A stretch of DNA of 64,000 nucleotides from Branchiostoma floridae (lineage: Eukaryota > Chordata > Leptocardii > Amphioxiformes > Branchiostomatidae). The position numbers and the translations under genes were made by a program. The notes beneath the pieces are model-generated. The model was not told the DNA's origin. It saw only the letters and a program-made list of their open reading frames with translations, and searched no databases. Location: NCBI RefSeq assembly GCF_000003815.2, contig NC_049980.1:17165912-17229911 (forward strand), given 5' to 3'. This document shows positions 4,898 to 54,057 of the stretch, one piece after another (the first letter of the stretch is position 1; each line of letters begins with the position of its first letter).

Positions 4898-5066
4898 CAT
4901 TCAAACAAGATGGCCAAGAGAATGGGCCACATGTGCAAGAGAAGTGGGGTGCTTAGTATCATTGGAGGCACTCCCCCTTGTTATTTAGCATGGAGCATAT
5001 TCTTTAATGATAGCAAGGATATACAAATGTATGGCACATGGACCAAGTAGGAGCCAACTTGTTTCA

Positions 5067-5123
5067 AATAAAACATTAATCGTGTAATAACCAAGCTTAA
5101 AAATGCATCTCAAGTTCAATAAA
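5067..5123 (+). terminator. GBA1 poly(A) signals
   Basis: AATAAA at 5067-5072 and again at 5118-5123, 170 and 221 bp after the GBA1 stop. Either could end the transcript. Confidence 0.7.
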
Positions 5124-5378
5124 TGTATTGCTACAATACTGTGTGGTGAGGTTCATCTTTGGACAAGTTGTTCGAAACATTGTAGACACCAAAATTCTTT
5201 TTTAACATTAAACGTTTTAGTAGCAAAGGCACACTTGTGATCTGTTATAACATAGGGCAGTGCAGTGATACAAAAAAAAAGAGGAAAATGAGAATAGAAA
5301 ATTTTAAAGTATATTTGGTCTGAAGGTGATCTGAATACTATAAGATTGAAGACAATGCTACACAAGTCTTTAAAAAGT

Positions 5379-8207: not shown

Positions 8208-11200
8208 CTAGAAGGAAAGAAGCACTCGGTAAATCCACATCCCAAAATAAAGTATCTGAGATGATCATAGAAAACTTTGATAGACAGCTTTAAAAAAAAC
8301 AAGTGACCGTAGGTAACATAGTCTGTGACGTCGGTCTGGTATATGTTGGTTGTTTTGTCTTCTTTGGTGTGTGACGTTGTGCTTATATCCTATATGATTC
8401 TTTTCATGGTGTTAGATATATCGTTGTATCTAAAGTTGCCTAATATTTCTGTGTCATGTGAATCTTACTAAACAGGTATGGATTGTGAGATAACATGTGG
8501 CCAAAGTCAAAAAGATATGGTGACGATAAGTTACCGGATGGTCTACTCTAATACACAGGCACATTCACACACAGACACACCTACAAGACCGACAGGCAGG
8601 CTGACAAACGCACCAAGTATTAACATGTTTCTGTTATGGACGTAATAAGTATGAAGCACGGAATAGGACCTTGATGTTTCTTAGTCGAAGTCAGGGAATA
8701 TAATATGGCTAAACTTCATTTGGGACGAGAATTCTTACACGCTTCATTGCAAACGGCGACAGGAGGTATTTGATTGACAGGGTCATTAGTGGAACATTAG
8801 ATGTCGGTTCCCATGTCCCACATAAGATAACACACAGCTGTTGATGATGAACTGTGCGATAAGTTTTTAACTAGTGTGAAGCCATAAGGTAGCATGACAC
8901 AGTGTTAATGGGTGAATCCCGGGGTCCATGATGCTGGTACATAAAGTAGTACGGATAAACTTGTTGAATAAGAGGTAGAAAGCAAACGCGCGTAAAATTC
9001 TTGCACATATCGCGCATCTGCTTAACTATACCCAATTACCTCAACGGGCACCATATGCAGACATGGGCCAATACACTGTGAAACGTACAATTTGCAGGGG
9101 TGATTTCTGAAATTATTACATACATAATAAAAACAGCTGCCGAAAAAATAAAACACCTTGCATCATCGTCCAACTATGTGTAGAGAACCTGCCAAACCAC
9201 AAACGTATGCGACAACGGGAACATGCAGATATAGATGCGAACGCGCGTTACATTGACGACCAGAGAACATCACGCATCTGCTTGCAATATCTCAATTACA
9301 GCATGACCCATATACAGGGGATCTGGACTAATACACCGAAAGATGAACATTTTGTAGGGGTGTTATTTTTATTGCGTCCCTAATAAAACCAACTGCCGCA
9401 AAAACAAAAAAAAACAAAACAACGTGCATCATCGTCAACCTCAGTGCAGATGACCTGCCAAACAACGTACGTATGCGACAACGGGAACATGCAGATACCG
9501 ATGCGAACGCGAATAACTTTGACGATCAGGTAACACCACGCATCTGCTTGACAAATTCCAATGACACCATGACCCACATACAGAGGATCTGGACCAAAAC
9601 ACCGCAAGACGAACAAATTGTAGGGGTGTTATTTTTATAAAATCCATAATAAAACCACCTGCCGCAAAAAAAAGTTCACGTGCATCATCGTCAACCTCAG
9701 TACAAAGGACCTGCCAAACCACATAGAATTCAGACAACGGGAACATACAGATACAGCTGCGAACGCGCGTAAACGTGACAAAACTAAAAGTCTGTCGACC
9801 AGAGGGTCTGGTCACAGACTAATATTCAACATTATGCTTCAACCTATATCAACCATGGAAAGGGAAAGGCCATATATGGGGAAGTCACTATGGGTAACGC
9901 TTTTTCATTCCACTCTATTTATTGGTGTTGATGTTTCCAAATATTAAAGTTAAAGATCTATTCTACTTGTGAATACATGACAAACCTGCATGATGATGTC
10001 ATCTAGGCCTGCTCTAAGTGCCTTCGGGATAGCCTGCCTGGGCTGTAGGTCCTTAGCTGCGTACACCTGTCTATTGTTCAGGTACTGCCAGGTCAGCACC
10101 TCCGCAGTCTCACGTGGGGTGAAGTGCATGAGGGACGGCACATCGCCCAGCTTGGCGTCCATCTCTGTGGCATCCTCCAGCAGCAGCTGACTCATGACTT
10201 TGACCTCCCGGTGCATGTTGAGGGTCCGTTGGCGCAGGTTGTGCATGCGCTGGCTCAGGAGGTAGTTGTGGAGGCGGTACTGGTATGGCGGGTGTTTGTT
10301 GGGATGCATGGTGATAGCACGCTGCACGCCCACGGTGTGAAGGTTCTCAATTCTGCCCTTCTTGTCGTTCTTGTAATCGTTGAAGAACAGGTGTTGGCTC
10401 TGCAGTGAAACAGAGAAATCATCACTGTGGAATAAAGACTAACATCAACAAAGACCCGTTAGAGTTGTTTGCATTAATGATAGTATCTTGCAGTAATATA
10501 ATCTTAGTATCAAGTGGAGTATCACACTGTACTTTGCACAAGACACAAAGATGGCCACTCTTTTCTAATCTGGCACCATCAGCTGAATAGACAGTAATGG
10601 TTGTCGGTGCCAGAGCATATAACATGACATGGTGATGTGACCGAAAACATGTTGAATGAAGTTCATACTGAAGCATATAAGGCCAAAGCTGGTCAGTGGT
10701 CAACATGACCTTCTGGTCTAATTTCCCCTCTCAAAGTTGCTACCTACATGTATATCTACAGCAAAATGTTTTGGTCAAGCAAAAACGTTTAGTCACAAAA
10801 GACTCTCATCTTCACTATCTACTATATAATAGTCCTTCCAAACAAATGGATCAAGGCATCCTTTTTTATTGAATTTCACCCTCTATGGCATCTGTTGAAA
10901 AGGATGTTACAAACCAGTGGCAAAGATCTCCTGGCGTGTGTGTATACATGCACATGTATGTGTATCTAAATAGCTAGGAGTGACCTGGCAACTGAACAAT
11001 AATAAACACACCAGTTACCAATCCAAAGGCCTTAGTGAAATTGTTTACAAATAGACACTCATCTTCACAACACTGCAAGCTGCAAGCAAAGCACATGCCC
11101 CAGGAGTATAGGTCTGGTACTTTGCTTGTGCTGACACAACATGAGATTACTACATGCATTATTGTAATACTGTAGTGCCCCTTGTGTATGTCTGGTTTAT

Positions 11201-33100: not shown

Positions 33101-36100
33101 GTCTTTGTTCAAAAGAGTTTGCTTCTCTATGCTACTTTTCAACGTATGATGTCCAAAGGGACATCATGTGTTGAAAGCCAGCATATAGCAGATGGACTCC
33201 TTACCAGTGGAGGTTTCAATCCAGGAGAGAAACATTATTTTGTCAAAAACCCTGGAGGATCTAATGACTCAAAGCAATGGCGGGCTTGGAAGTCATTACA
33301 GAGAGACAGCTCTGGTTTCCAATTAACAGTTAAGTACGTTTATCAAGGATGGAAACAAAAACAAATGATTCCTCAGTTGTACAGTTTTAGAATCTTGTAT
33401 CTATATTACAAAAATAAAAGGTGCTTCCAAAGGGAAGCTTGAGCAAAAGTAAGCGTGTAAGCAGAAAACAAATGATAATAAATAATCACACATAATTTTC
33501 TTTTTCAAGTCAAATTTGCTCCCAGTTTAGACACATTTCAGAGGAGTGATGTGTTAATGTTTATGATTGACTGCTTCATCAACCACTCACAGAAATAGCA
33601 GGCAGTGACATTCAAGGGCCTGGAGGTGAAAGGTCAGGGGTTAGAATGTCTGCAAGGGAGATGGCCCCTTTGGGCCCTGTCCCATTGATGTAACAGTTAT
33701 TAAACTGGGTATGAACAACTTATGGCCAGACCTATGATAGCAATGATGTTCACTTGTCATAAATACTAATAATACATCTGCTGTATCATTTGCAGCCAGT
33801 AGGTACATACCCAATTTTTCAGTAATGAGGCTCCTCGAACATGGGATCCCCGTTTTATGTTCCTTCTGAAAGACGGATTTGTGAATTCTGAAGATCTATA
33901 CTTGGACAGACATTTTCTACATACACAAGCACCAACATGAAACATATATACACAATCACACATGCACTGTAACTAAAAGAAAGAAGCTATGCAACCAGGT
34001 CACGTCACAGGACTGGAGCCACCAGTAGTTAATGCCACCAGAACCACAGAGTTTACACCAAAATAGGCTAATATCTTTTTGATGTCATTAAATAAACACT
34101 TGAGAAAAACAGGACAAGGGAAACCGCCCCCACAGAACAGCTGTAAGTATGGTACAAACACGAAGACAAACGCGTTAAACAAACAAGATAGTTTACTCTG
34201 AAGATTCACTATCTTCATTAGCGTAGCCAGACTACGTCAAGATATCCTTGTGATATAAAACTGCTTAGAAGAACAGATAGTTACTTCCTGTCATTATCTG
34301 ACAAAACCAACTGATACATGTGGGCATCTTGTTCTATTCTCACAATGCTGAAGGCTAACAAAACTTGTGTGCAGATGCTGAAAATGAGACATAATATTGA
34401 ACTTATTGATAAAGAAAATGTCGCTTTATCTGAGGTCTGAAGACACTTATTAAACACTTAGGAAAGACAGGTATATGATAGGTATTAGATTAGCTTCCTT
34501 CAGAATCAATTATGGGCAAACATATCCATTTACTTAGGCACAAAAATGAATTGTTCTACAAATGTCCTGGTCAATTTGAGCCCAGAAATTTCTACTTCAG
34601 TCTGAGATTCCTGCTGAAAATGAAACCCTTGGATGGACATTCTTTGTCAATTAAGCAGACAAAGTGGCATTCCCTTGCCTTCAGGCAATTTCGGCACATT
34701 GTTCTCATAATACCTTCAATTGTTGTTTCACTCACTAACAACTGCTGGAATATACACGACTCTCTGGGATAGGGTTCCAGTATCCCAACACATCAGAGCG
34801 ACAACAACAACAAATCAAGGTGAATTCCGAGTGGGGAAGGTCATGTGTGGTATTTCCACTTCCCTCCCGTTCAGTTGGTAAGTTGCACACCAGGTGCAGG
34901 GTGTCCTCTAGGTGCCAGTCATTCTGTGTCACCTGCTTGACCCCACTGGCTCCTGTTTGGTCAGGGGAGACTCTACCAAAGGGTTATGAACCAGTTCCTC
35001 TAGTTTGTTCTACTAGCTGGGCGGAAAATTGCCTCAGTGAGAATTCTACCAATGGATAAGCCTTCTTAGGATACACATGTCAAGATGGAGCTCTAGACGC
35101 CCTGGCATTTAGACCAAGCTCTGCATGGCACCTATCATTTTATACCACACATACCTACAGGTCAAAAAGGCAGTTAGTTTTGCCTTGGGCTGAGTCTGTT
35201 CTTGTTGAATGAATGAATACCTTTAATATACATTTTGCTGTGCAGACTGAGAGCTTAGTACACAACTAAAAGATTCACACTTACAAAGTTAGATACAGAT
35301 GGACTTTTCTCCTCCTTTTACCTTTTTCAAAAAAAAAGTATAAGTAACAGATAATGGACGTTTATAACAGAGAGTGAATAAGTAACCTCCTTAAAAAGTT
35401 TATTGAAGGGATAATGTTGCAATTTTATACAAGTCCTTCCTGCCAAGAAACAGAAGCAGATGTGAGGTGCCCTGGGCACATTCCACAGTTGGCCATAAAT
35501 CTTTGGTTTTGTCACCTCAAATTGTCTGGTCTTTCCAATGCAACACTGTATCTATGTTTCTTTCATTCCTTAAAACTAGGTCTTAAAGACAAGTTGGCAT
35601 GATGAGACAAGATAATCTGATTTTCAGATTGAACGAAGAACTTGTTCAATTCTTACCTCATATGCCCATGTGCAGGCTACCCCGGTGAACTTCTGAATGC
35701 AGCGCCCAATCTCTACATCTTCATGTGTGGTGTACAGGTGCTTCAGACACCATGAGATGTTGGGTACCATCCTCCTCAGCGTCTCTCGACTCATGATCAT
35801 CCCCGGCCCCCCCATGCAGAAGTTCTCGCCCGCGTCCAGCGACAGGCGTCCAAACTCTTCCGGACTGCCCAGCCCTGTCTGTCCGATGTACAGTGGCCTG
35901 GTGGAGTTCACCCCCCTGAGGAATTTCTCTAGTTTGTCCCCCTTGATGTATACATCATCATCAGCCCTCATGAACCAGTCATACTGGTCCAAGTAATGGT
36001 CGTGCATGTACTTCAGCATGAGGAAGGACTTCTTCTGAGGGGGATAGGCGTCGTCAACCCCCGGGATGTTAACTCGGGACAACCCGTCTGGAGAGAAGCC

Positions 36101-36463
36101 GTTGGGATCGTAAGCGGAGTAGAATTCAACCTTGCCGGGAATATGCTTCTGCCAGGTCTCGTAAGCGGCTACCGCTCGGGAGTCCAAGTATTTTTTGGCC
36201 GTCATCACCCCGACGTACACGAGATTCTTGCCCCGCTCAGGGCCGGCTGACTCCTTCTTGGGCGTACTCGCCGGTCCGCCTGGGTCGCCCGCCCCGCTGG
36301 ACAGCAGCTCTGCAGCCGTGGGGTCCCGTCTGCATCCCACTCGGGTCCCGAGACTCCCTCCTCTAGGCGGGTCGGCCCTCTGCACCACCAGCCAGCTGGC
36401 GAGCGTGAACCCCAGAAACAGTCCCGCACATAGCCCGACCACCATCCTGGCTCGCGCCGTCAT
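7074..36463 (-). CDS. CHSY1: Chondroitin sulfate synthase 1 (CHSY1), complete three-exon coding gene
   Basis: Bifunctional Golgi glycosyltransferase that polymerises chondroitin by alternating addition of glucuronic acid and N-acetylgalactosamine. Coding exons on the minus strand: 36463-35657, 10399-9986, 8207-7074 (stop 7076-7074), about 784 codons against 802 in human CHSY1. It is a type II membrane protein: short cytoplasmic N-terminus, signal anchor VVGLCAGLFLGFTLASWLVV, then a stem. The N-terminal domain has the family block VGVMTAKKYLDSRAVAAY and a DDD metal motif; the C-terminal domain has FFCDVDLVF with DVD and WGMEDVDLF. Intron positions, after WAYE and after DDIIMQ, match the three-exon human gene. 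Start choice: Met at 36463 aligns with the human start; in-frame Mets at 36487 and 36553 would add 8 or 30 residues. Confidence 0.95.
8208..9985 (-). other. CHSY1 intron 2
   Basis: Intron of 1.8 kb, GT-AG on the minus strand. Apart from the tandem array at about 8986-9780, no feature is recognised. Confidence 0.9.
8986..9780. repeat. Tandem array, about three units of ~260 bp
   Basis: The word CGCATCTGCT recurs at 9013, 9273 and 9539, and CCTGCCAAAC at 9188, 9453 and 9710, giving unit lengths of 257-266 bp. Units are about 80% alike by eye and include shared phrases such as GACAACGGGAACAT and GCATCATCGTC. Spurious minus-strand ORFs across it repeat the same peptide words. It lies in CHSY1 intron 2. 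Confidence 0.9.
9986..10399 (-). CDS. CHSY1: CHSY1 exon 2: linker between the two catalytic halves
   Basis: 138 codons, phase 0 at both ends (acceptor CTGCAG, donor GTTTGT). It begins SQHLFFNDYKNDKKGR and contains AITMHPNKHPPYQYRLH, a strongly conserved CHSY block. It ends LDDIIMQ, exactly where human exon 2 ends. Confidence 0.95.
12776..12912 (+). repeat. Dispersed repeat, copy 1
   Basis: Shares ordered words with 14274-14506: ACACTTAACGGTAA, CAATGCTTA, ACTTTTGCATCAAA, and CCCAGTGT/CCAGAGTGT followed by TCAG-AGTATGAT. Copy 2 carries an extra ~90 bp. Family unknown. Confidence 0.65.
14274..14506 (+). repeat. Dispersed repeat, copy 2
   Basis: Partner of 12776-12912 in the same orientation and word order, with insertions. 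Another shared word, GCATGCAGACCCTCAT, appears near both copies (13434 and 14610), so the repeated unit may be longer. Confidence 0.6.
15010..15808. mobile_element. Nested inverted-repeat elements (MITE within MITE)
   Basis: Outer arms: GGATCCCATTCACACACA at the left against a GTGTGTGTGAATGGGGTCC right end, with further inverted similarity inside (ATTGGATTAAACTCAAA against TTTGGATCAGG / ATTGGATTTGAC). Inner arms: GGCCAAACCA then TTTGTTGCTTCTC at 15207-15235, mirrored by GAGAAGCAACAAAT and TGGTATGGC at 15486-15514. The inner pair is bounded by TTAA at 15203-15206 and 15515-15518. No coding capacity. Confidence 0.6.
19211..19236. promoter_or_regulatory. Palindrome of two octamer (POU-factor) motifs
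   Basis: An 11-bp perfect inverted repeat, TATGCAAATGA / TCATTTGCATA, with a 4-nt spacer. Each arm contains ATGCAAAT. A further ATTTGCAT occurs about 40 bp downstream, followed by ATTAAT. Regulatory meaning is inferred from motif identity only. Confidence 0.4.
20937..21074. mobile_element. Short fold-back element with 10-bp target duplication
   Basis: About 30-bp inverted arms: 20938-20967 (AGCCTCCATAGCAGGC then CTGGGCCTTTT) and 21045-21074, two mismatches. AGACATGCAG lies at 20927-20936 and again at 21075-21084, directly flanking the arms. The length of the duplication is unusual for Tc1/mariner or hAT and closer to Mutator-like elements. Confidence 0.75.
21121..21164. repeat. (AC)n microsatellite
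   Basis: Thirty bases of uninterrupted AC, then an ATGT interruption and more AC, immediately right of the fold-back element. A purine-pyrimidine alternating GCGTGCGCGC stretch precedes it. Confidence 0.95.
23291..23325. repeat. (ATG/ATA)n microsatellite
   Basis: Trinucleotide run of GAT units decaying into AAT and GAC units. Confidence 0.9.
25775..26370 (+). mobile_element. MITE family A, full copy
   Basis: Terminal inverted repeats: left CAGTC-(short insert)-TCAAACCTGTCTATAG and right TACAGGTTTGACTGTA. Inside are repeated GTGGCCACTATAG-like words and, at 25989-26030, a 21-bp tandem duplication (AATGATTGATATTGCCATG). TA bounds the right end, consistent with a Tc1/mariner-type 2-bp TA duplication. 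Noncoding. Confidence 0.8.
27550..27729 (+). mobile_element. MITE family A, partial copy (3' end)
   Basis: Contains AATAATCCAAGGGA, GACCACCAAAA and a terminal TACAGGTTTGAC, matching the right half of the 25775-26370 element. An internal ~60-bp segment is duplicated in tandem. No left end is present. Confidence 0.65.
30492..30505 (+). repeat. 14-nt G homopolymer
   Basis: Fourteen consecutive G. A second run of about 11 G after a T run is at 29118-29137. Length in the assembly is likely unreliable. Confidence 0.9.
31653..31864. mobile_element. Palindromic MITE with TACTGTAAATGCA ends
   Basis: Left TACTGTAAATGCAGAAAT and right AACTTAAATGCATTTACAGTA are inverted copies flanked by TA. The interior is an imperfect fold-back built from repeats of ACCGCGAA, TCGCGGT and AATTAAATCC. 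212 bp, no ORF. Confidence 0.85.
35657..36463 (-). CDS. CHSY1: CHSY1 exon 1: anchor, stem and N-terminal (GT31-type) domain
   Basis: 269 codons ending TGGGCATATGAG before donor GTAAGA. It encodes the signal anchor, a Pro/Gly-rich stem and the beta-1,3-glucuronosyltransferase-like half. The DDD motif in WFMRADDDVYIKG is at 35954-35962. Conserved SYPPQKKSF-like and MLKYMHDHYLDQYDWF blocks follow the family closely. The GC-rich start region fits a CpG-rich promoter. Confidence 0.95.
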
Positions 36464-36537
36464 GCCGGCCCGCCGCGTCCACAGCATCACTCTCGGGTTC
36501 GTCAGCAGGCCCAACACACTGTTTCGTTGATGACTAC

Positions 36538-36740
36538 ATGTCTTGGTGAGCACTGGGTCCTCTCTGTAGACAGAAAGATCGACATTAGTGAGTATCTCAG
36601 CCTGACCGAAGCTGCAGGTTCACCAGTTCGGCCGCCATCTTGTTTATTCATGACGTCACATGCACAACACCCACGTGGATCCTCCACGCAGATACTCCTG
36701 ACATCATTTGTAGCGCTAAGGAACCTGATAAGCACATAAG
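36538..36740 (-). promoter_or_regulatory. CHSY1 promoter / 5' UTR region
   Basis: Upstream of the CHSY1 start codons. It contains a GCCGCCATCTTG YY1-type motif (36631-36642), a consensus cAMP-response element TGACGTCA (36651-36658) and a CACGTG E-box (36672-36677) within 47 bp. No TATA box was seen. Transcription start not determined. Confidence 0.55.
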
Positions 36741-37620
36741 ACCTGTGGGACAAAAAATTTAACGTTCCATTAGGCAGAAATTTAACTACATTTCAAATTC
36801 CTTGAATAATTTCATCAAATCGGTAAAGGACTGAATAACAACCAGACACCACACCAAGCCAGTGCAAAGTGAACCAGTGCAAAGTGAACCAGTCAGTATT
36901 GCCTTGAGTGACAGACAGATGGTCACCGAAACGTTAACTGTTTTGCTACTCAGCAGCTACTAACTGAATAAAAACTTTGTTATTTCTACTCAACCGAAAA
37001 GCTCTTTTCTACTCTACTCTACTCTTCTCTACTCTACTCTTCTCTACTTTACTCTCTACTTTACTCTGCGCCTCCTCCATCCGCGTGATATTCCTACTAG
37101 GAAGTTTGCGGATTACGAACTATAACTAGAACTAGAACTAGTCTACTACATGTAGTACATTAATCTCGTGCGTACTAAAAGGTAGACTGCAAAGACCAGG
37201 AACCTCAACCTTAACCTGGTAACCGTAGTAGATCTCAGTACACAGGATGCAATATATAACGTTATCTAGCAAGAGCTAGGGTATTTTTTTTCTTTTTCCC
37301 TTTTCTAAGGGGACGCTGAAGAATGATTTTTTCTGTATACATACATGATTTCACTCGCCCCAACAGATGGAAGTTGTTTATCGCTCACAGACGCCTCTGG
37401 TCTTTGACTACAAAACTGCACCCTAGGCCTGACGGCGAGTGGCTGATGAATGAAGAGACAGTCGACGATCTCATAAATGGATTGACTTGCGGGAGCAAGA
37501 CAGGTCGTGGCATCGATTTCACTTGCTTTTAAATTTACACTAAACTAGAAAGAATGGGATGGGGCGGTGTCAACAACTCGATAACGACATTATGACTGAT
37601 ATATACCAAGGAAAATCAGT
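36741..37620. other. Intergenic DNA between CHSY1 and the receptor-like gene
   Basis: Contains a 16-bp tandem word (GTGCAAAGTGAACCA twice, 36862-36893), a pyrimidine-rich CTACT/CTTCT simple repeat (37001-37066), and a 21-codon open frame at 37366-37425 with no recognised family. No clear gene. Confidence 0.6.
37001..37066. repeat. Pyrimidine-rich (CTACT)n simple repeat
   Basis: Imperfect 5-bp units CTACT/CTTCT and ACTCT over about 65 bp. Confidence 0.9.
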
Positions 37621-37629
37621 TGGAGCTTT

Positions 37630-37983
37630 GGAAATCAGTTACCACTGAAGGGACCACCATCAATTCATTAACGTCCTCCGCGATAAAAAGTACGTTTTTA
37701 AAAACGTCAATTGTCATTGTCCTCTTTTTGTTTGGCAAATGCAGACGACCTAGTTGGATGGACAGTACAGGGCGAGTAATGGCCAACCAATCAATCAACG
37801 AGAAAGTCGGTCTTTGCAAGTACAAGCCCACCTGCAGTCCAACGGAACAATGGGTAGAACTTAGGAGAAACATGTGCGTGCCTCTTGAACCTGTCCAGCA
37901 GTGCCGACGTTCCTGGGTGTGTTTTTTCACCCACGCTGGCATTTCGTTCAGACTAAATGGAGGATTCAGCAGTGTTCGGGGAG
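37630..37983 (+). CDS. Candidate Cys-rich exon, unconfirmed
   Basis: Open frame of about 118 codons ending at a near-perfect donor GAG|GTAAGA (37983/37984). It holds a hydrophobic stretch TSIVIVLFLFG, then seven Cys including CSPTEQWVELRRNMCVP. The C-x5-W arrangement resembles the start of single-module TNF receptors, but the following Cys do not fit that fold well. No in-frame ATG precedes the hydrophobic stretch, so an upstream exon would be needed. The opposite strand is also open here, which weakens the case. Its outgoing phase (1) matches the stalk and transmembrane exons of the downstream receptor-like gene. Confidence 0.25.
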
Positions 37984-38398
37984 GTAAGAAATGGGGACCA
38001 CTGGCGAAACAAGTCACAACACAGGCAACATTAGCACGTCAAAGGACGTGGGGAGAAATTCCCTAGCTCCAAGGGCGGAAATACCATAGACTGTGTGTGT
38101 CCTGAGTTACGCTATAAGCTGGAGTAGCAGGTGCGGGTATGGGGGGACTATTCAGAATTAGAACCGTTACACATGTTGGATTTTGTTCACGATAAAAGTG
38201 TCCCTTCAGCTTAGCTCCTGGTAATGAATGTCCCTAAACATTTAAGTCACTCGTGGCTTTTCCAAAATTTCAAACCAATGAAAGCCCTAGTAGCAACTTT
38301 TAATGTTGGTAGCCGCGTATGGCATAACGTAGGGTGTTCGAAGGGAATACAAACTGTGTGGCTGCCTTGAATTAATATCCCGCCAGAAATAGATCCGC

Positions 38399-38453
38399 TA
38401 TGTCAACAAATCCTGTCAATATTCATATGTCAACAAATCCTGTCAATATTCAT
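38399..38453 (+). repeat. Tandem duplication, two ~27-bp units
   Basis: ATGTCAACAAATCCTGTCAA followed by TATTCAT, present twice head to tail, just upstream of the CRE/TATA pair. Confidence 0.9.
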
Positions 38454-38473
38454 CCTTGTCGTAATAATTCTGA

Positions 38474-38508
38474 TGACGTCAGTCTTGTTTTATAATTGCC
38501 CTATATAA
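38474..38508 (+). promoter_or_regulatory. Candidate promoter: CRE plus TATA box
   Basis: A perfect TGACGTCA (38474-38481) sits 20 bp upstream of TATATAA (38502-38508). A start site near 38535 would place the first in-frame ATG of the receptor-like gene (38607) about 70 nt downstream. A 7-codon upstream ORF starts at 38594. Confidence 0.4.
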
Positions 38509-38606
38509 CAGCAACGGCAAACAAGCCTTGTAAAATATTCTATCCAGCAACGCGCAACAATCGACTTGAAAACGTAGCGAGCGACGAGGAGATATGGCCA
38601 AATCTG

Positions 38607-38674
38607 ATGCAAGATAGCACCCCGTACATCACTATATGCTTTATGTTATTCGTTATCATACTCATAATCTCTTG
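38607..38674 (+). CDS. Receptor-like gene, candidate signal-peptide exon
   Basis: ATG followed by MQDSTPYIT, then a hydrophobic core ICFMLFVIILIIS, ending in a weak donor TG|GTAGTC. It leaves two bases that, with the first T of the next exon, make Cys. It sits at the expected distance from a CRE/TATA pair. The weak donor makes this the least certain exon. Confidence 0.3.
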
Positions 38675-41600
38675 GTAGTCCTTCGGTATCGAAGATGACT
38701 CGTCAGGTGGCTCGTCAGCCGGGGGTGAACACTCATATGGCTCCTTTAGTCTGACCGATCGACACAACAACGCATCAGAGATAGTCAAAGTCACTACGGT
38801 CAAACAGCCTTGATGTGGGGCAGAATATCTCTCGGACGCACGGATCAAGAGGGCACGCTAGCTGGGGCCACTGTCCTGATTCATGCTACACCATGTGGGA
38901 TGAGCACTCCCTGTGACTCAAGCTGACGGTAACCTGACAAAGAAGGTCCAGAATTCTTTACTGGTGGAGAGTGCAGTATCCACTAAAATAAAATGACAAA
39001 CTGCCCACCATCTGCTATTCGATGACAGCCATTGCCATGGAGAAAAGTACAAAACAGCCATTATACATAACTCATGTAGCTGTGGCAGGTAGTGCCTCTC
39101 TTAGCACCGCGATGACAGTTTTTCAAGTGAAACGATGCTAGAGTGGTCCGGGCAGGTACGATTCATGACGACACTAGAGAGATATCCATCAAAGCAAGAA
39201 GAATTCAAATCCTGCTGAAGTAAATTGTGCATAAATAACACAAACACACCTGATTTCCCCACCGTACTTGGGCCTGACAGTATGAAACTCCTGAATGCCC
39301 ATTGATCCGACCCTTCTGCAGACAGTGTACGTGTACGTCGTCCCCAACAAAAGTCAGGCGTAAAAATGTGCCTAATTTTGGATGAGGTATGTACAGCACA
39401 AACTACCGGAGTTGATTACGTTGAGAAGTCAGCGTACGCGTGAAGAAGACTATAATAGTATAATGCCTGCATACTCTATGACATAGCACTATTCCAATAC
39501 CTGGTGTTTGGACTATGTCTACAGAGTCTATGCCGGCGTTCTAGCCGCATGGTTGTGCTCAAAAAGGAAGTGACGCAACGTTTAGTAAATACGCTCTGCT
39601 GCTTGGAGGGAAGAAACGTCACGATAACAGCTGCGACAGGAAGGGGAGTGTCAAGCAAACGTACGGTGGCAAAACTTTAAGTTTATCAGAGTCGAAAAAA
39701 ATATAGCACACATCGTGAAATAGCCAATTCATTCCTGTTCTTTCGAGGAATGGTCACTGATATTGCACTTTTTAAAATGAAAATGAAAATGGAAAACTCA
39801 TGAAAATGTGTAGCCAATATAGGTGGTGCTTTTTTGACATTTTGATTTGATCATTTACCTTAACTTGGGTGTCCCTGGATAATCAAATCGACAAGAACAT
39901 TCGTCGTTGACAAACTATTTTTCGGTGAAACCTAATACATAACATACAATGCACTCAGATCATGAAGTCTTTACGTTCATGCGGATGTACAGCATTTGAT
40001 ATGAAGTGCACGGACTAATCGGTAGAAGGCGTTAGTGTACATTTGAAAAAGTCATGTCATGTCACTCATTGATGCTTTTGGGTCGAGTAATCACATGCTT
40101 GCACTGAATTAATAATCATCAATACAATATTCATTATTGTTGAATGCATGCTTGTTGAATATGTATATGACGTGACCTAATATCGGAAATAAGTCTTTGG
40201 TTTCGAATATACACGAATTCAAATTGTTGAATCTGGACTACAATATATTACGTCAACTTCTGAACCTGGCGAATGTAGTACTACATGTATATGGGGCAGG
40301 AGCACAAGTAACCGTAACTTAGTAAGGGACGCAATCTCTGTGAGGTCGATCAACAAACAACCAGCTAGAATGCTAGAATGTGTTTCCTTAGCGATGATAT
40401 GTTTGTTCACAGCTAGCTAGCCAAATAAGTCAACGTACATAACGATATTCTTCCGATGATGTGACGCATCATAGGAAAGGGACTAGTCCTTACCAACCCC
40501 GTTCACACTCAAAAAAATGAAGCGGCTTCAACGTGGAAGCCGCTTGATCCGGATCGTTTTCTTGAGTGTGAACGCTCCAAGCGGCTTGGATTTTCACCGA
40601 TCCGGCTCGTTTGCAATCCATCCCTGGGAGGTAGTTTGAGACACTTGTGAACAAGCCGCTTGGCTGAAATCGCGAGTGTGAACGCAACGCGGGATAGATT
40701 CTATGCAAATTTCCGATTTGCCCCCTGTTGGAGGTTATATATCCAGGTATCGGGAGCAGGAACACACGCCACGCTGACAGGTTTGCTCACGTTACTGATT
40801 TTTGAGCCCAATGATAATGTCTGGAAAGAAAAAAAATCGCTGTAGGGTCAAGGCAAGTGGAATGGGAAGCAAACAAAGCTTTTTTTATCACGCGAAGAGA
40901 GAGGAAACACAGCAAGCTAAAAACAAATCACAAAAAACAAGCATATCTTTGAACAGCTTTCTCTCTGGATCATGATGTAAGACTATTAAGGGTGGGCTTG
41001 AGAAAACCTACAAACAATGTTGTAAAAAGTACCTGAAGTCCAGGTACGGAATTGTGTGCGATTAATCGGATTGTCTGAACTAAGTGTGAACGTAATTTTT
41101 TTGAAGCGGCTTGCACGTTCAAGCGGCTTCCACGTTCAAGCCGCTTCATTTTTTTGAGTGTGAACGGGGTCCTAGAAAGCCAACGGAGCACACTTTTATA
41201 CTACTCTTTTTAGGAAGATCAAATAAACACGTTTGCATTACATTACATATTGCCTTACATATTATATTATAGTACGCACACATTTTCCCCAATTCAGGAA
41301 CAACACAAATCTATGATGCCAACGAATCTGAACCTAAGGCAGGAATCACTCTCGTGGGTGTGCAAAGCTGCCATTTGAAGACCAACGTATGACAGGCGTA
41401 TTGTATGCCATAGAAACTGAATACTATATATATTCTGCCGCAAAAGAGGAAGGGAAGTCCACTAATGTGTTTATATAAGGTAGCATTGGCACACAACAAT
41501 AAGTGTTGATGTTACCCAGTCGGACAGTGTTAATGTTATCATGTGCGAGCATGATAGATCAATAGCTGAATGATGAATCAGAAAGAGACAAAATGATAAC

Positions 41601-44600
41601 GACCCAAAGGACTAGTTACTCGTACCTTCACCGATCGAGATGGTTGTATCAACTTTCATGAAAATAAGGGAACGTAGGGAGCCGTTTGTGCGTCTTCTTC
41701 CTTGCGATTCAGCAATATCCCAATAATGTTTCCAGTGATGGTGATGATACTTATAAGGCGTTATAGACCTAATCGTCGAGCTCGAGGTCAATTTTGGACC
41801 TTTTAGTACTAGTGGTCGACCTTGATACTATAGCAGGACTTCCGGATTTGAACCTCTGGTCCTGGACATAATGTGGTCATGATTTTTTTCTGGTAGGTAG
41901 TTCTTGTGCAATGGATGAAGTGACATAGCGATATAGCACTGACAGCACTGGACCCACTGGCAGATTCCTGTTTATTGGCAGACTTTGAAACAAAATGCCT
42001 CTGGTTGTTGGATCCTCCGGTCTGTAGATAGCTTAACTTGATTTACAAAGCGACCGCAGCCAAAATCTAACAGCCTATTAAGAATTTATCTAGAGATATT
42101 TACAAAACATTCTGTTGATAAAGTTGGTATTTTTGCGTATGGTGTTGATGGAGAAAACAATGCCAATATGACCAGATTCTTAACGTTCACTTGTTTGGTG
42201 ACCGACCTTTCGTGGTTGTTTGCTTGTTATTACATTGTGAATTTTTGACATTCAAAAGAAAATCACACTTAAGGTAANNNNNNNNNNNNNNNNNNNNNNN
42301 NNNNNNNNNNNNNNNNNNNNNNNNNNNNNNNNNNNNNNNNNNNNNNNNNNNNNNNNNNNNNNNNNNNNNNNNNNNNNNNNNNNNNNNNNNNNNNNNNNNN
42401 NNNNNNNNNNNNNNNNNNNNNNNNNNNNNNNNNNNNNNNNNNNNNNNNNNNNNNNNNNNNNNNNNNNNNNNNNNNNNNNNNNNNNNNNNNNNNNNNNNNN
42501 NNNNNNNNNNNNNNNNNNNNNNNNNNNNNNNNNNNNNNNNACTTACCCTACAGAAACTAAATGAGCTAAGATAGCTTGAATGTCCTTTGTCACGTTGTAA
42601 AGTCTTTATGAAATATCTGAGGATTTTGAAAACATGTCATCTGCTTTCTACAAATATACATACACATGTGATTGTGTCTTGTAAACGGCCGATTTGTGCA
42701 TATGTTTTAGTTTCAATCTAAGAAACATAGTGTATTTTGTCAGAAGCATCGCCGCATGTTTTGGGTCTTTACAACTTTCAAAATAAACCCACCGCCACTG
42801 AAGTCGACCAGAAACGTATAGAAGGATTGCAGATACTGTTGAACGACACAAACATTTCATATATGGTATGTTGAGGCGTGGCTTGGTTTATCCCACGATA
42901 TATGGGGTGGAAAGTAGAACGTTTCTTTCATAAGACATAAAAATATTTAGACAAAAGGGAAGGGAAGTATTCTTAACCGCATAACATCATTCGAGATACA
43001 AGTGTGATGCTTATGTAAAACGAAAAATACATTTTTATTTGTCCCCAAATGGTTACGTCCACAACACACCTCTGAATGGGTCCACATGGTATGTCTCCAT
43101 TTTCTGACTATGCAGAAGCTTATGGATAGTTCCTCAGTTTTGTAACCATGATGGGAAAGTGTCCGGAGAATTTCGGCTGGGACAGCGTCCTGGGGTGCCG
43201 CCCGTGTGTCATCTGTGTCAGCTGGCCAGATGACCCTCACTGTTGGGACTGTCCACTGCCTGGTAAGCGATTTATTTGCACACAGTCGGTATTGATAGAA
43301 AAGCGAGGGTTTCCGTAAAAGTTCAGGTTTCTTACCAAAAAAAGAGGTAATCGACCGAAACACAGGGAATCGTGTGCATTTTTCGACAAAAAAGGTCCAT
43401 ACCTGCAAAAATGTCTTTGAGCAATTAAGGCGTAAGTAAAGAAAGTACTAATGAAGAGGCTAAATCAAGATCAGCCATTTTTGAGCAAAGACGGAGGAAC
43501 ATTATAAGAAGTAGTAAGTGCTGTTTTGTCGCGAAAATGTTGTTTTATCCACCTATTTCTTTTGTGAGCTTGATAGACTTTGCCAGACTTCTTTCATCGG
43601 CACCATGTTAGGTGGCATTGCCGTTATGGGGGCAGAGGGAGAGGCTAATAGTAGCGTCCACCGCTTGGTGGCGCCTTTCGTGATATTCGAAAGCTACATC
43701 GGTTTTTGAGTCGGGAAAATATTTCAACAAGTGATATATTGAGTTAGATACACTAAGAGTGTTTAGTCTTTGGAAGATATAATTGGGGAAAACCCAACCC
43801 TCTCCCAGCTAGCTTTCGTTTTCCGTAACCTGATGTCAAAGTCTCAAAGAACAAAACAAAACGAGCTATTGAATAAAAAGTAGATATAGGAGAGTTGGCA
43901 CACTGAAATACAGAGATGATCTTAATGCCTAATCTACTGCTAAAATTTGAAGATGACCATGGATATTATCAAATCCAAATGTATCTGTTGCTAGGGAACT
44001 TCCCTGAATCAGGGATAATAGAATGAACAGTTGACAAGGAACTTTAAGTATTCGGGGAAGTCCCGATAAAAAACCGTAGTCGCCCTAATGGACCACAGAT
44101 ACATGGGATGAAGCAAATTTTAAATGAGTATCCTTTAAAAATAGAGTTCATATCTTCTATAATTCGATAGATTCAGTTTGGCAAGGAAATTTATCTTACC
44201 ACAGTATCTCGTTGCTGACTTGTTCTCAGCGAAATGTGTAAATAAGGGATTTTTGGTTCGAAAAATATATAAGGTCACACCTACATTATTGTGAATGAAG
44301 TTGTGTCAATTAACGATTGCCAGAATAACGGCTTATTTTTTTCGGTGCAATGCGTGTTGACTACGGGTAGTTGTAACATTCGTTACCGATAACAGCACAC
44401 TGAGTTTTTTCATCGAGAGACGTAGTAGCATATATACGGACAATAAGAAACTGGACAGCTTTCTTACACCAGGTCAAGAGAATGACGTAGAAAGCATCAA
44501 ACAAATCGATGATGATAAGGATTTCAATAAAGTAATAAACTAATAATGATTAACAGTGGATACAAACATCAGACTTTAAAGTGATACGGATAAAAAAACA

Positions 44601-47600
44601 AGTAGTTATATATATTTCAAGGTGACCCCATGCCTTTACATGTGACTTCCATGTGAATACAGCTCAAGAAGGTCAGAGAAAGCCTTATGAAATGTGTACT
44701 GACCGCGCCTTAGTGAAATCAGTAAGAAAAATAAAGCGAAAGAGGTCGACTCATCGGCTAAACAATCATTCTCAGTTTTGAGCTACTTGATGAATTCTAT
44801 CATCCTCTCAGGTGACAGTCGCTTTTAGCGGTGGAGTTCTACTGTGGTTATCATTTCTTCCAAGCTATCAACCAATACATGTACCTATGTTGTTGTGTAC
44901 GTGCATTGTTCGTAATGCATAATAAGTGTTGTGGGAAAACAAGGATGCTGCCCTTAATTTTGCCCATATAAAACTGTCGACAGCACTTTTTGCACATTTC
45001 ATGAACGAGCCTACTACATGTACGTGTACGTGCAGTGCGTTAACTCCATCTGTGAGATCTTTACATAAAGTAGAGGTTTATCGTGGATTGGGTTCGTGTC
45101 TTCGTTTGCCCATTGGGGTCAGTATGCATACTTTAAAATCTATATCAATTTTATCAANNNNNNNNNNNNNNNNNNNNNNNNNNNNNNNNNNNNNNNNNNN
45201 NNNNNNNNNNNNNNNNNNNNNNNNNNNNNNNNNNNNNNNNNNNNNNNNNNNNNNNNNGTCCGGGTTTAATTAAGAAAACGTGAATGTGCAATCTTTGGGA
45301 GCAACCCCCATGGCAATTATTACCTTATACATGTAAATGTATCAAAACAACTCGAGTATCAACTCGAGCAGAGTGTCAAATGTTAAAACGAGATCTTGTG
45401 ATCCGAACGAACAGAAACCACGACAGGGTACGCCGCTTCCGTGACTACTTCAGCAAGTTGGAGCAGTACTTCAGGTGGGCAGGAGGGGCTGTGGACTACT
45501 GTGGTAGCTGATGGCATCATCAGTACTGTCCGAGAGCTGCTTACTAACCTGCCCGGGCCGTCTACCGTCCGTGACACCCAGGAGATAGTAGTGGGTACGG
45601 CAGGACAACAGGGTAGGGTGAAGCACATATTCTGAAGCTTTATGAGATTTAAGGTTAAGATCGTGCACGTCTGGGTTTAGGCTACCCAATTTATAGATGT
45701 CTAAAACCTCAAATGCGATCCACACACCTATTCATAACCCCTGAATTTTCGTTCTCTTTAAACCCGGTTCCACAGACCCCTAAGACTATCACAAGAAATT
45801 GGGTTCAAGTACAAGTACTATAGGTTGGCTAGTTGATAGGCTCCGATTGATATAAAAAAAAAACTGTAGCACCAGGGCACTGGCTGTGCCTCACTTACGC
45901 TCCGGGTCCTTTCCACAAGACGGCGACCAAAATTGGATTTGTGTGACTCTTGACTTCATGAGTTGGAATATGATTTAAAAAGAACCGATGACTTAAATAA
46001 AAGACATCAAAACACACAAAACGTAAAAAAAATCGTTCTTTATCTATGAAATGTGTTGAGGTCTGAGATCTGTTGCTCAACGGTCGCAGCGCAGCCGAAG
46101 CCTCTAGAGGAAAAGGTGTGTAAAAAGGGTGTAAAAGGTATTTTCGAGTAAGAGAAATACCAATAAGATAGTGGAATACATGCAAAATACGTATGGCAGG
46201 GGCGTCATTTTTTAGATACACCGGAGTTTTATCTGTAAACACCTCCAAGCTAGACTGTTACTTCCCCTGGGACCGAATGACCTGTCCTAGCCACCTAGCC
46301 ACTGTGACATGGTAGCCTAAAGTACTGTGTTAAAGTTCTGTTTGAAGATAACTCTGACGATGATTTGACCGATTTCTGAATATATTGGGTCTTCTGACGC
46401 ACTGGCACATGAAACACATATTAATGTTATCTCCCTGAACTTAATGGCGTCATGAAACATTTACAGAAAAGTAACAAACATTACTCTTGTGTGAATTACC
46501 TTTCTTGATTTCTTTCCGAGCATTGCATCTTGCGAAAGGCTGACAAGTAGGATGCTGTTCACCAGGTTACTGTTTGCCTTCTCTCCGAGACTCTCGCCGC
46601 CTGTAGACGAGTGACACGTATGCACAAAATGTCTGCTACACAGACTCTTTCTGCAGTCACTTTTGTCAAACCTATTATTAGTGTCTCCGAAATTGGAAAC
46701 AAAGGCACCAAGATTGCATCTTACATCCTGGTTATTCGGTAAACAAAAGGCACCAATCAATAGCCTTTATTGCACATATTAGTTGGAGACTAACCTATGC
46801 TTGGAGAGTAACCATCTGTACCCGTATGGTGATGAACAGGTTTTGGGGAGGAGCTGACGTGCTCGGAGCTGACTGTGGTGGGCGTACTGAGCGCTGTGCT
46901 GACGTTCCTGTTGGTACTCCTCCTACTAAGCTGTGTTGCTTGCGGGGGGAGGGTGTGGCGTTGGTGGGACAGCGGGACCACCAGTGTTACCCTGAGGAAA
47001 TCCCCCAAGAAGTCACCTCTCAGTACGTACTATTACGAATCAGTCAAGTGACCACCTCTACATAAGGACCACCTGTCCAATCCACTTTCTCGTGGTCCCT
47101 TAACAATTTTTCCTTTCACACAACGGCAGAAAGAATCCGGTCTATAGTGACCATTGTTGTCAACATAGACCAGATTTTGGGTGCAGTTTTGACTATAACT
47201 TTTCATCATCATCATCAATTAAGAAAGTCCGGAAAAATGAAATTGGTGAGAATATGGATGTGACATTGGTAGTTGTGACTAAATAATGCAATGTAGGCCT
47301 CCTTTTGTCATCAAATATGTGACTTAGAGACATCATTGCTATTGGTAACTAAGTCGTAACTGAGTAGCATGAACTCTTCAAGCGCATCAGAAGCCATGTG
47401 CATGTCAGGAGCTTTCAATGTCAGTAAAAAATGGTACTAGTCATTTCCTTTATGCTTTAGGCCCCTTTGTACTAGAGGGCGATCGCTGAGGCGTATGGCG
47501 ACCAAAAATGCAGTTCATGGCTTTGTAATTGGAAAACGATGCAACATGTGAAATTATGACAACAAAACACACTAAAATGTCACAAAACGTAATTCGTAAA

Positions 47601-47770
47601 GACATTCTTTATCTATGAATTCCTTGGTCACTCAGTGGTCGCATGCAGCCTCTGATGGAAAGGGTGTGGTAGTAAACTACACATCACACATAATGTTTTT
47701 CAAGGTTGACACCGTGTATCTGTTCTTTTTTTCCCCAGGCGCCGGTGACTCCGCTACATTTGGGAGGTAG
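38607..47770 (+). CDS. Fn14/TACI/BCMA-like single-module TNF receptor (inferred five-exon gene)
   Basis: Inferred type I membrane receptor of about 197 residues. Proposed exons: 38607-38674 (signal peptide), 43138-43262 (cysteine-rich module), 45427-45612 (Ser/Thr-rich stalk; 45415 is an alternative start), 46840-47022 (transmembrane), 47739-47770 (tail, TAG stop). Total 594 nt, divisible by three; all junction phases agree (2, 1, 1, 1). In mammals such receptors bind TNF-family ligands (TWEAK, BAFF, APRIL) and signal through TRAF proteins. The cysteine module and transmembrane exon are the best supported parts; exon 1 and the last exon are weaker. I see no clear TRAF-binding motif in the tail, so the tail model may be wrong. 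No poly(A) signal AATAAA was found before 49 kb. Confidence 0.5.
40497..41171. mobile_element. Inverted-repeat element with CCCCGTTCACACTC ends
   Basis: Left end CCCCGTTCACACTC, A-run, ATGAAGCGGCTT; right end AAGCCGCTTCAT, T-run, GAGTGTGAACGGGG. Each arm is itself a series of AAGCGGCTT / AAGCCGCTT words separated by CACGTTC, so it can fold at many registers. GAGTGTGAACGC-type words also recur internally (40564 and 40674). About 675 bp, noncoding. No clear target duplication was identified. Confidence 0.8.
42278..42540. other. Assembly gap (263 N)
   Basis: Run of N inside the proposed first intron of the receptor-like gene; an exon could be hidden here. Confidence 1.
43138..43262 (+). CDS. 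Receptor-like gene, TNFR cysteine-rich module
   Basis: 41 codons between acceptor TTCCTCAG and donor GTAAGC. The module reads KCPENFGWDSVLGC, then RPC, VIC, an 8-residue loop, C, WD, C: spacing C-x11-C-x2-C-x2-C-x8-C-x2-C. Human Fn14 (TNFRSF12A) has the same spacing except x12 in the first loop, and the same Trp six residues after the first Cys. WDSVLG also resembles the DxL turn with which TACI and BCMA contact BAFF and APRIL. All six Cys needed for three disulfides are present. Confidence 0.7.
43263..45414. other. Proposed receptor-like gene intron 2
   Basis: No coding or repeat structure recognised, apart from the gap at 45158-45257. Confidence 0.5.
45158..45257. other. Assembly gap (100 N, unknown size)
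   Basis: Exactly 100 N, the usual placeholder for a gap of unknown length. Confidence 1.
45427..45612 (+). CDS. Receptor-like gene, Ser/Thr-rich stalk exon
   Basis: A symmetric phase 1-1 exon of 62 codons. It starts GYAASVTTSASWSSTSGG, rich in Ser/Thr like an O-glycosylated juxtamembrane stalk, and continues VRELLTNLPGPSTVRDTQEI. The donor is CAGG|GTAGGG. The acceptor (CGACAG, or AACAG at 45414) lacks a good pyrimidine tract. The frame is open from 45402. No domain is recognised; being symmetric it could be skipped without breaking the frame. Confidence 0.4.
45915..46115 (+). repeat. Dispersed repeat, copy 1
   Basis: Shares GGCGACCAAAA, CAAAACACAC, AAAACGTAA, CATTCTTTATCTATGAA-like and GGTCGCA words in order with 47480-47670. 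Orientation is the same. Confidence 0.65.
46840..47022 (+). CDS. Receptor-like gene, transmembrane exon
   Basis: Encodes FGEELTCSE, then a 25-residue hydrophobic helix LTVVGVLSAVLTFLLVLLLL-SCVAC, then a basic cytoplasmic start (GGRVWRWW, then VTLRKSPKKSPLS). Incoming phase 1 fits both the stalk and the cysteine-module exon. The donor is A|GTACGT. Without splicing the frame would run on to a TGA at 47049-47051 that lies inside a MITE copy, which argues for splicing here. Confidence 0.5.
47041..47199 (-). mobile_element. MITE family A, short derivative in reverse orientation
   Basis: Starts near CAGTCAAGTGACCACCT and contains GGACCACCTGTCCAA and GTGGTCCCTTA, the reverse complement of the family-A right end. 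TCTATAGTGACCA and TTTTGACTATA near 47140-47199 correspond to the left end. The copy is internally deleted. Confidence 0.5.
47480..47670 (+). repeat. Dispersed repeat, copy 2
   Basis: Partner of 45915-46115, beginning GGGCGATCGC. Both copies flank the transmembrane exon of the receptor-like gene. Confidence 0.65.
47739..47770 (+). CDS. Receptor-like gene, candidate terminal exon
   Basis: Preceded by an excellent acceptor (pyrimidine tract TTCTTTTTTTCCCCAG). In the frame set by the previous exon it encodes SAGDSATFGR and a stop. In a different frame the same acceptor opens a 57-codon ORF to a TGA at 47910-47912, so the true tail frame is uncertain. Confidence 0.35.
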
Positions 47771-48857: not shown

Positions 48858-49455
48858 CAGGGGTGCCTAAGCATTTGCACGAACCCTATGAAATTCGTAC
48901 GAATATTATGTGATACACACGAATCACTATGCAAAAACGCACGAATATTATGAAATTCGCACGAATCACTATGCAAAAACGCACGAATGTTATGAAATTC
49001 GCACGAATCACTATGTGATTCACACAAACCTTATGAGATTTGCACGATCCTTATGCAAAATTGCGCAACCACTGCCAGGGTCACGTGACAGACGGAGCGG
49101 GATTTTCAAGATGACGGCTTCGATCGGCGGCGACGGAAAATACAATGTAACACCCCGAAATGAAGCAAAACAGTAGCTCACAGGCTATGAAATACATCTT
49201 TGCGACGGTAAATGTCCATTTCATGCCTTGAAATATAAATATCACGGGTAGAAACGCTCAAAATCATGCCACCTCCCGGCCGACATTTTTGCATAAGGAT
49301 CGTGCAAATCTCATAAGGTTCGTGTGAATCACATAGTGATTCGTGCGAATTTCATAATATTCGTGCGTTTTCGCATAGTGATTCGTGTGTATCACATAAT
49401 ATTCGTACTAATTAAATTATTTCATAGGGTTCGTGCAAATGCTTAGGCACCCCTG
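48858..49455. mobile_element. MITE with long subrepeated inverted arms and 5-bp target duplication
   Basis: Ends CAGGGGTGCCTAAGCATTTG and its inverse. Right arm is about 168 bp (49288-49455); left arm is about 205 bp (48858-49062) because one ~42-bp subunit (CGCACGAAT...TATGCAAAAA) is duplicated. TCAAA flanks both sides (48853-48857, 49456-49460). The ~225-bp core is unique and noncoding. The open frame through the left arm encodes a repeated peptide and is a by-product of the subrepeats. Confidence 0.9.
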
Positions 49456-52386: not shown

Positions 52387-54057
52387 TACAGTCAAACCTG
52401 TCTATAGCGGCCACTCAAGGGACTGGTAAAAATTGGCCACTATAGAGAGGTGGCCACTATAGAGAATACGCTAATTAATTCACCACAAGCAATAAGTTAC
52501 ACATGGTTTTAGTACCCACTGATCTTTCTTCACATAATACAGTACTGTACATGTACTGCAATGATTTTTACACTATACGTATTAAGAAAACAAAAGCTAT
52601 AAAAAGTTTTAAATGTTCTACAGTTGATATTGTCTGGAGAGACCGGTACCGTCATATTTCTTTTATCTTTCGTCTTCTATCCTTTGATACTTCGCCGTCC
52701 GTGTGTTCCCGCTCGCGTTCACACGTCAGATTCGCCCATTATGCTAATGTGGTACTCACAAGAAAAGTAACGTCATTTTAGACTTATCTCTTAATAAATG
52801 TAAGAATAAAATCCACCATAGTCTGAAGTTCATATCATTTTGTCTTTGTAACAATTTATTTAGAAATTTTTGTGATGTAAATATTGGTGTCGTCTATTGA
52901 CCTTATATGACCTCATTTGTCAGCGGGTTTGGGTAGCGCCAGTTTACGAAGTTTTGTTTTGAAAATAAGTCAAAGAGGTTTTAAATCCGGCGTAGGGTGA
53001 CGATACGGCCGCTGTATATGGCCGAACGCGTGCCGAAACATACATCAGCGGTCCGCGTGGCCGTAATCACAGGATGTCACAGGATGATCCTTAACGGCAA
53101 GAAGAGCATGCAGCTTCAAATTTGCTTTTGCAAAAGCATTCCGACGCCACCTACTCTGATTCTAGGGGGGGAAGCAGTACCCGTCGTGGAGTCAGCTAAA
53201 GGTCTAGGATTCATCCTTGACAGAGGTCTAACCCTCAACGACCAGGTTACGTCGATGGTGACCAAGGGCTCACGCAGACTTTACTACCTACGTGTCCTAA
53301 CCAAACAAGGCATGTCGGTGTCCGACCTTGTACAGGTGTATACGGCCCTGGTCAGGCCCGTACTTGAGTATGGCCATGTTCTCTTAGTTGGTTGCACCAA
53401 ACAACAAGAACAGTTAATCGAGAAAGTGCAAAGGAGAGCACTAAAGATCATCTCTCTGGGTGGCAGGAGAAGTGTTCCGGATTTGCCCACACTCAAGGAG
53501 AGACGTGAACTCGCTGCCATTAAGCTACTCAAGCAAATGATGAACCCGGATCACCCGCTACATGACATGGTCCCTCCGGTCAGGTCAGAGGTCACTGGAA
53601 GGTCACTTCGAAGCTCATGTAGTATCTCCGTCCCAAAAGCAAGGACCTCCAGACTGCGCAACTCATTCCTACACTATACAATCAGACAGTACAACAAATC
53701 AATGACTGGTGCCTAAGTGTTTTATTTGTCCATGTACTGTGTATGTCATGCGTACTGTACATGTTGTCTAGTCGTTGTAAGTATTCACTCTGAGTCACAT
53801 TGTAAAGATCAACGGCATTCAGAGATGCTTCTGCTAAGAATTAATCTCTGTAAGGTTGATTTTAATGAATAAAGAAAGAAAGAAAGTAATCGGCAGTGTT
53901 TTTGTACCTGCGGGACCGGAAATCGTGTGGCCGTGTTGGACAGGTGGCCGGTAAGCCTATTTCTTAATCATTACGAATCCAAGGGACCGACAAAAAGTGG
54001 CCACTATGGGCAGGTGGCCATTATGCAAAGGTGGCCGCTAATACAGGTTTGACTGTA
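52387..54057 (+). mobile_element. MITE family A, composite copy carrying a LINE insertion
   Basis: Left TACAGTCAAACCTGTCTATAG and right TACAGGTTTGACTGTA are the same ends as at 25775-26370. Left interior words (ACTCAAGGGACTGG, AGTTACACATG) and right interior words (GGACCGGAAATCGTGTGGCC, CCAAGGGACCGACAAAAAGT) are shared with that copy, while the middle is interrupted by unrelated DNA and the LINE tail at 53083-53886. Confidence 0.85.
53083..53886 (+). mobile_element. LINE 3' fragment nested in a MITE
   Basis: Open frame to TAA at 53714-53716 encodes the end of a non-LTR reverse transcriptase: LNGKKSMQLQICF, LGFILDRGLTLNDQV, RRLYYLRVLTKQGMS, ALVRPVLEYG and VQRRALKII. The 3' UTR ends in an AATAAAGAAAGAAAGAAAG microsatellite tail, typical of CR1-like LINEs. 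It lacks the zinc-knuckle C-terminus of the LINE at 3007, so the two are different families. 5'-truncated and dead. Confidence 0.85.

Follow-up and report, generated by a model that had tools for sequence, protein, structure and literature searches.

A probable Fn14-type single-module receptor gene, with relatives in the same genome, in the lancelet Branchiostoma floridae

The receptors TACI, BCMA, BAFFR and Fn14 guide B-cell survival and the repair of tissue. Of these, Fn14 has a signal peptide, with a TRAF site in its tail, and BCMA has a signal-less start just upstream of its first cysteine. The exon described here bears on the question of whether the receptor module of these four proteins is a vertebrate invention or older.

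A published structural account states that Fn14, BCMA and TACI engage their ligands with both halves of the module and that the main contacts are made by the tip of a hairpin (PMC8024323). The same passages compare the topology of Drosophila Grindelwald, an invertebrate TNF receptor with one CRD, with those of Fn14, BCMA and TACI CRD2; Grindelwald has eight cysteines (X2-C2), and its authors there call the sequence similarity and superposition poor (PMC8024323). For lancelets, the excerpts cited here name a TNFR-caspase (PMC2575513) and Bbt-TNFR1/2 (cited in PMC5752451), and one gives the number of B. floridae TNF receptors as 10 (PMC4979521). Among the literature matches listed, the excerpts hold no description of an Fn14- or BCMA-type receptor in lancelets; such genes may already be listed or annotated elsewhere.

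A six-cysteine exon and its relatives

The window, which is the whole stretch of 64,000 nucleotides that was analysed (G000:C2:17165912-17229911, in an assembly of 513 Mb and 431 contigs), contains a short plus-strand exon whose frame, read via 43139 between the AG at 43136-43137 and the donor after 43262, is FVTMMGKCPENFGWDSVLGCRPCVICVSWPDDPHCWDCPLP (Table 1). Frame 1 from 43138 is not coding, because the exon carries one leading base. A sequence-only reading of this DNA had reported six cysteines spaced x11, x2, x2, x8, x2, and the translated plus frame bears this out. It had also likened the 41-codon exon to human Fn14 in all but one residue of the first loop, and the human structure 2kmz indeed has x12, x2, x2, x8, x2 with the Trp in the same place. 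Of the good splice sites that it described, the donor stood, ranking within the best 0.5% of the window's GT sites, and the acceptor at 43138 did not (score 3.3, top 18%). These scores come from a generic weight matrix. An alternative acceptor at 43116 scores higher (7.1); with it, because of an in-frame TAG at 43127-43129, the sequence preceding ATGATG would be untranslated. The exon is a GC island, at 0.58 versus 0.37 and 0.39 in its flanks. A looser cysteine pattern (x10-13, x2, x2, x6-12, x2) matches once in the window and once in 148 order-3 Markov windows.

Table 1. Features of the window (window positions) and related loci elsewhere in the genome.
Feature	Position	Strand	Remarks
CRD exon	43138..43262	+	coding from ATGATG at 43148: MMGK-CPENFGWDSVLGCRPCVICVSWPDDPHCWDC-PLP; ends in phase 1
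ATG ATG, putative start without signal peptide	43148..43153	+	four and three codons upstream of Cys1
Possible optional exon, Ser/Thr-rich stalk	45454..45612	+	phase 1 to 1
Transmembrane (TM) exon	46840..47022	+	phase 1 in, (G)FGEELTCSELTVVGVLSAVLTFLLVLLLLSCVACGGRVWRWWDSGTTSVTLRKSPKKSPL
Possible last coding exon	47739..47770	+	(S)AGDSATFGR-stop; weakest part of the gene model
Module tally (at least 14)			window 1, C13 1, C17 1, C5 6, C378 3, C8 1, C1 1
L005 (G000:C17:12976600-12986599)	4805-5305, 6429-6728, 6974-9496	+	module, TM-like segment, 840-residue frame
L007 and L008	G000:C5:19977675-19981321	-	neighbouring frames, each with three Fn14-type modules and a signal-peptide-like start

Searching the same genome with the window exon gave matches on contigs C13 (E = 1.0e-6) and C17 (E = 3.6e-4), each 50% identical. 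At least 14 modules spaced x11-12, x2, x2, x8, x2 lie on seven contigs, and since at least 13 of them are additional to the window module and lie on six other contigs, that module is not a product of chance. The nearest relative is on C13. Its cysteine spacing is identical to that of the window, and MSSRL precedes its first cysteine after an in-frame stop. It joins two more same-strand exons, in phase 1 at both introns, and the resulting 145-residue model has a single TM-like segment and a tail of about 59 residues, in which VVEES comes only near the TRAF consensus. Behind the module, the donors of the window, C13 and C1 are in phase 1, and that of C8 is in phase 2.

At the C17 locus, open frames follow a signal-peptide-like start and an Fn14-type module. 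They hold a TM-like segment and further domains, and the 840-residue frame matches ZU5 (7.4e-18), Death (2.2e-11) and UPA (2.6e-5, below its cut-off). The arrangement resembles a TNF-receptor module fused to an UNC5-like tail in what would be a single gene. Two frames on C5 pass the cut-off of the Pfam Fn14 family, stn_TNFRSF12A, with 40.6 and 36.9 bits versus 24.9. Below the cut-off, this family also matches on C3 and C378 and in 3 of 14 control genomes. With a C5 frame as the query there were 12 matches, which included new modules on C378, C8 and C1 and recovered the window exon in ninth place (E = 0.0122). Three low-complexity pattern matches on C3 (L010) were excluded from the module set, and C5-query matches at C2:23309183 (6 stops), C8:579576 and C378:177838, which contain no module fitting the cysteine pattern, also stand outside the 14.

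Start site and kinship of the module

A Met lies three to five positions upstream of Cys1 in the window, C13 and C8, and in the latter two it stands at a distance of four or five and comes after an in-frame stop. The main competing reading of this end of the gene is that the CRD exon is internal and that an upstream exon supplies a signal peptide as in Fn14, which would make the product an ordinary type I receptor. An acceptor is present at 43138, and the C17 and C5 frames start in a signal-peptide-like way (judged by eye), as that reading would predict. We scanned positions 37000-43137 for ATG-to-donor exons of 40-300 bases with a hydrophobic stretch and a donor score of at least 5. Neither of the two candidates ends in phase 2, as an exon joined at 43138 must, and both were rejected. 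Together with the stop-preceded Met of C13 and C8, this makes an upstream signal-peptide exon unlikely, although it keeps an appreciable chance, and we favour a signal-less start within the CRD exon itself.

Taken alone, the window module matches no Pfam family at E ≤ 10. The earlier reading had named poor scores against all TNF-receptor models as grounds for giving it up; the exon alone does score poorly, and this is overturned only because its relatives match, with 8 of 10 modules matching stn_TNFRSF12A at E ≤ 10 (best 0.0011). Among solved structures, the only match of the exon at E ≤ 10 is Xenopus Fn14 (0.13), and TACI, as a partly hand-entered query, matches the same Xenopus chain comparably (0.18). 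The window's score to Xenopus Fn14 was reached by 5 of 5000 shuffles in which the cysteines were held fixed. The corresponding counts were 6 for TACI CRD1 (hand-entered sequence), 82 for BCMA, 685 for human Fn14 and 947 for TACI CRD2, and none of the 5000 reached the window's summed score over five references.

Several profiles were built from the lancelet modules. The profile of the three members found without the Fn14 model placed Xenopus Fn14 first (0.012, the next match being 0.25). Human Fn14 received 7.0 bits from the profile of the window, C13 and C17, less than BCMA (8.7) and TACI CRD2 (8.1), and 3.6 bits versus 6.0 for BCMA from that of the window and C13. A ten-member profile matched Xenopus Fn14 (2.2e-7), TACI (1.9e-4 and 2.8e-4) and human Fn14 (0.0017 and 0.0018), with the next match at 0.49; below E 0.01 it finds Fn14 and TACI only among solved structures, a result that is partly circular because 7 of the 10 modules came through the Fn14 model or adjoin its matches. 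The C5 and C378 modules were not found with the window, and their profile gave the window 23.4 bits, a score reached by 2 of 2000 cysteine-fixed shuffles, and human Fn14 26.0 bits. From the C13 and C17 profile the window received 49.8 bits, which is not independent because these two were found with the window. The profile link to Fn14 thus goes beyond the cysteine pattern and is strong only for Xenopus Fn14. In our view, the chain that leads from the window through C13 and C17 to C5 and on to Fn14 suffices to assign module membership. The suggestion of an invertebrate relative of the single-module TNF-receptor group is in this way supported by paralogues in the same genome: the exon encodes an Fn14-type module of this family. 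The fold prediction is of low confidence (pLDDT 55.6, two short strands).

It is improbable that the window gene encodes a BAFF/APRIL-type receptor, orthologous to BCMA or TACI, whose ligand contact is made by a DxL hairpin. In the window this hairpin reads WDSVLG, and WDSVLGC resembles both TACI CRD1 and BCMA by the shuffle counts given above. The TACI likeness that had been noticed from the sequence therefore stands, and the DxL that was part of the same claim does not, since D-S-V occupies its place; D-x-L is also not kept across ten aligned modules. D-S-V in the hairpin means that BAFF/APRIL-like recognition is not supported. The signal-less layout and the higher score of BCMA than human Fn14 in two of four profiles would suit an orthologue. 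Against it, the loop is one residue short, the spacing after Cys3 is that of Fn14, and BCMA reaches at most 8.7 bits in the four profiles versus 13.2 to 33.8 for Xenopus Fn14.

Coding evidence and the rest of the gene

Between the window and C13 exons, 20, 20 and 8 of 31 codons are identical at positions 1, 2 and 3, with pS of 1.03 and pN of 0.36. Third positions are saturated, and first and second positions are conserved. Across six of the 14 modules, pN was below pS in 15 of 15 pairs. The comparison with C5a1 was less clear (17, 17 and 16 identical). This codon-position pattern supports translation of the plus frame. The CRD exon itself has a codon score close to zero (0.3), which is not the highest of the six frames; among stop-free frames there, the minus frame has a codon score of 2.3, and its synonymous score is -5.5 versus 3.6 for the plus frame. 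The longer minus-strand ORF that the sequence-only reading had seen overlapping the exon is present (42947-43447, 166 aa). We rejected it as a gene: it matches no Pfam family at E ≤ 5, and the codon-position pattern favours the plus frame.

That reading had missed a transmembrane exon that lies downstream in phase. Its hydrophobic segment, with a 19-residue mean of up to 2.83, is followed by Arg and Lys, and the exon's codon score, 24.2, lies above the 99th percentile (15.6) of the 976 stretches that were open among 4000 random ones of equal length. Of 432 acceptor-bounded open frames of 60 codons on both strands, three have a TM-grade segment (at least 2.5), and only the frame at 46840 among these has a positive codon score; the acceptor threshold in this filter was 2.0, just below the score of the 46840 acceptor itself, and strand, distance and phase were unfiltered. 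The splice sites of the exon are weak (acceptor 2.0, donor 2.4), and its joining to the CRD exon is a predicted gene model. It is very improbable that the CRD exon is a non-expressed relic or a chance open frame, as the weak splice sites and near-zero codon score might suggest, given the conserved first and second codon positions beside a saturated third and the in-phase transmembrane exon downstream.

The other parts of the model are candidates of lower standing. The possible stalk exon has a codon score of 15.9, between the 95th (12.0) and 99th (16.8) percentiles of open random stretches; a genome search at E ≤ 1 matched only its own place, and the C13 model has no counterpart of it. The acceptor of the possible last exon is the top-ranked one in the window (14.4) and is in phase with the donor at 47022, and beyond acceptor and phase this exon has no coding signal. 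Without the stalk exon, the modelled product would have 109 residues. We saw no canonical TRAF motif in the modelled tail (inspected by eye).

Against Pfam, the whole gene model matched only two unrelated families, both below their cut-offs. Against solved structures, the full model with its transmembrane exon matched NETO2 best (0.0034), and Fn14 came fifth of five (0.78). A degenerate LDL-receptor class A module in a NETO-like membrane protein, to which this top match and a Cys2-x5-Cys4-x8-Cys5 arrangement fitting the end of an LDLa module might point, is scarcely credible, as much of the NETO2 alignment is transmembrane, Pfam gave no LDLa match at E ≤ 10, two cysteines are unaccounted for and the 13 other modules keep the Fn14 spacing.

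Elsewhere in the window, exons of a chondroitin synthase-like gene (CHGN, Fringe) lie on the minus strand at 7074-8207, 9950-10438 and 35624-36619, so that this gene and the receptor gene stand head to head. Long plus-strand open frames at 2935-3918 and 52985-53716 resemble reverse-transcriptase remnants by eye; for the former, zf-RVT scores below its cut-off (E 0.0029), and for the latter there is only an insignificant match (0.18). Repeats 20-62 bases long, built around CGCACGAATATTATGAAATTCG and seemingly present in both orientations, form arrays at 48873-49406.

The predicted receptor and known systems

We consider it likely that the CRD exon encodes the sole cysteine-rich module of a small single-pass receptor of the TNF superfamily, with an Fn14-type module in a BCMA-like layout. 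That layout would comprise a Met just ahead of Cys1, no signal peptide, the transmembrane exon, basic residues and a short tail. In such a receptor, the hairpin preceding the second cysteine would dock onto a trimeric TNF-family ligand, the ligand would gather three receptors, and the receptor tail could then recruit an adaptor. The absent TRAF motif might be explained by an exon that the model lacks, by a partner chain or by a role as a decoy. Candidate ligands with a TNF fold are present in the genome, where PF00229 has 21 matches at E ≤ 0.001, three of which contain stops; the matches are pieces of fewer genes. TNFSF12-like and EDA-like ligands have been named for B. floridae (PMC8517431, PMC5316386).

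More tentatively, the single-module receptor group of Fn14, TACI, BCMA and BAFFR may predate the vertebrates, with an Fn14-type family radiating here, paired with TWEAK/EDA-like ligands. That family could, with similar caution, comprise signal-less single-module receptors, three-module genes and one receptor with a ZU5-UPA-death-domain tail. A family that keeps the Fn14 spacing and includes signal-less and death-domain versions makes the age of the module testable by ligand-receptor pairing in one animal.

Compared with described receptors, the module has six cysteines in Fn14 spacing, whereas Grindelwald has eight. The lancelet TNFR-caspase and Bbt-TNFR1/2 belong to the same superfamily, and the passages on them contain no Fn14-type single-module receptors (PMC2575513, PMC5752451). 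BCMA shares with the predicted layout a signal-less start near Cys1, and the TACI CRD1 hairpin, WDPLLGTC, resembles WDSVLGC in the window; both differ from it in spacing past the third cysteine, the strict DxL is lacking in the window, and BCMA stays at or below 8.7 bits. The modelled window gene shows neither the signal peptide nor the TRAF site of Fn14, a difference that depends on the exon model, and human Fn14 alone is no closer to the window than shuffles are. The first loop is x11 in the window versus x12 in human Fn14, with the Trp at the matching place. Fn14/TNFRSF12A (2kn0 from Xenopus, 2kmz and 2eqp from human) likewise has one module, its x2, x2, x8, x2 spacing is identical to that of the window, and Xenopus Fn14 is the closest solved structure to the window exon.
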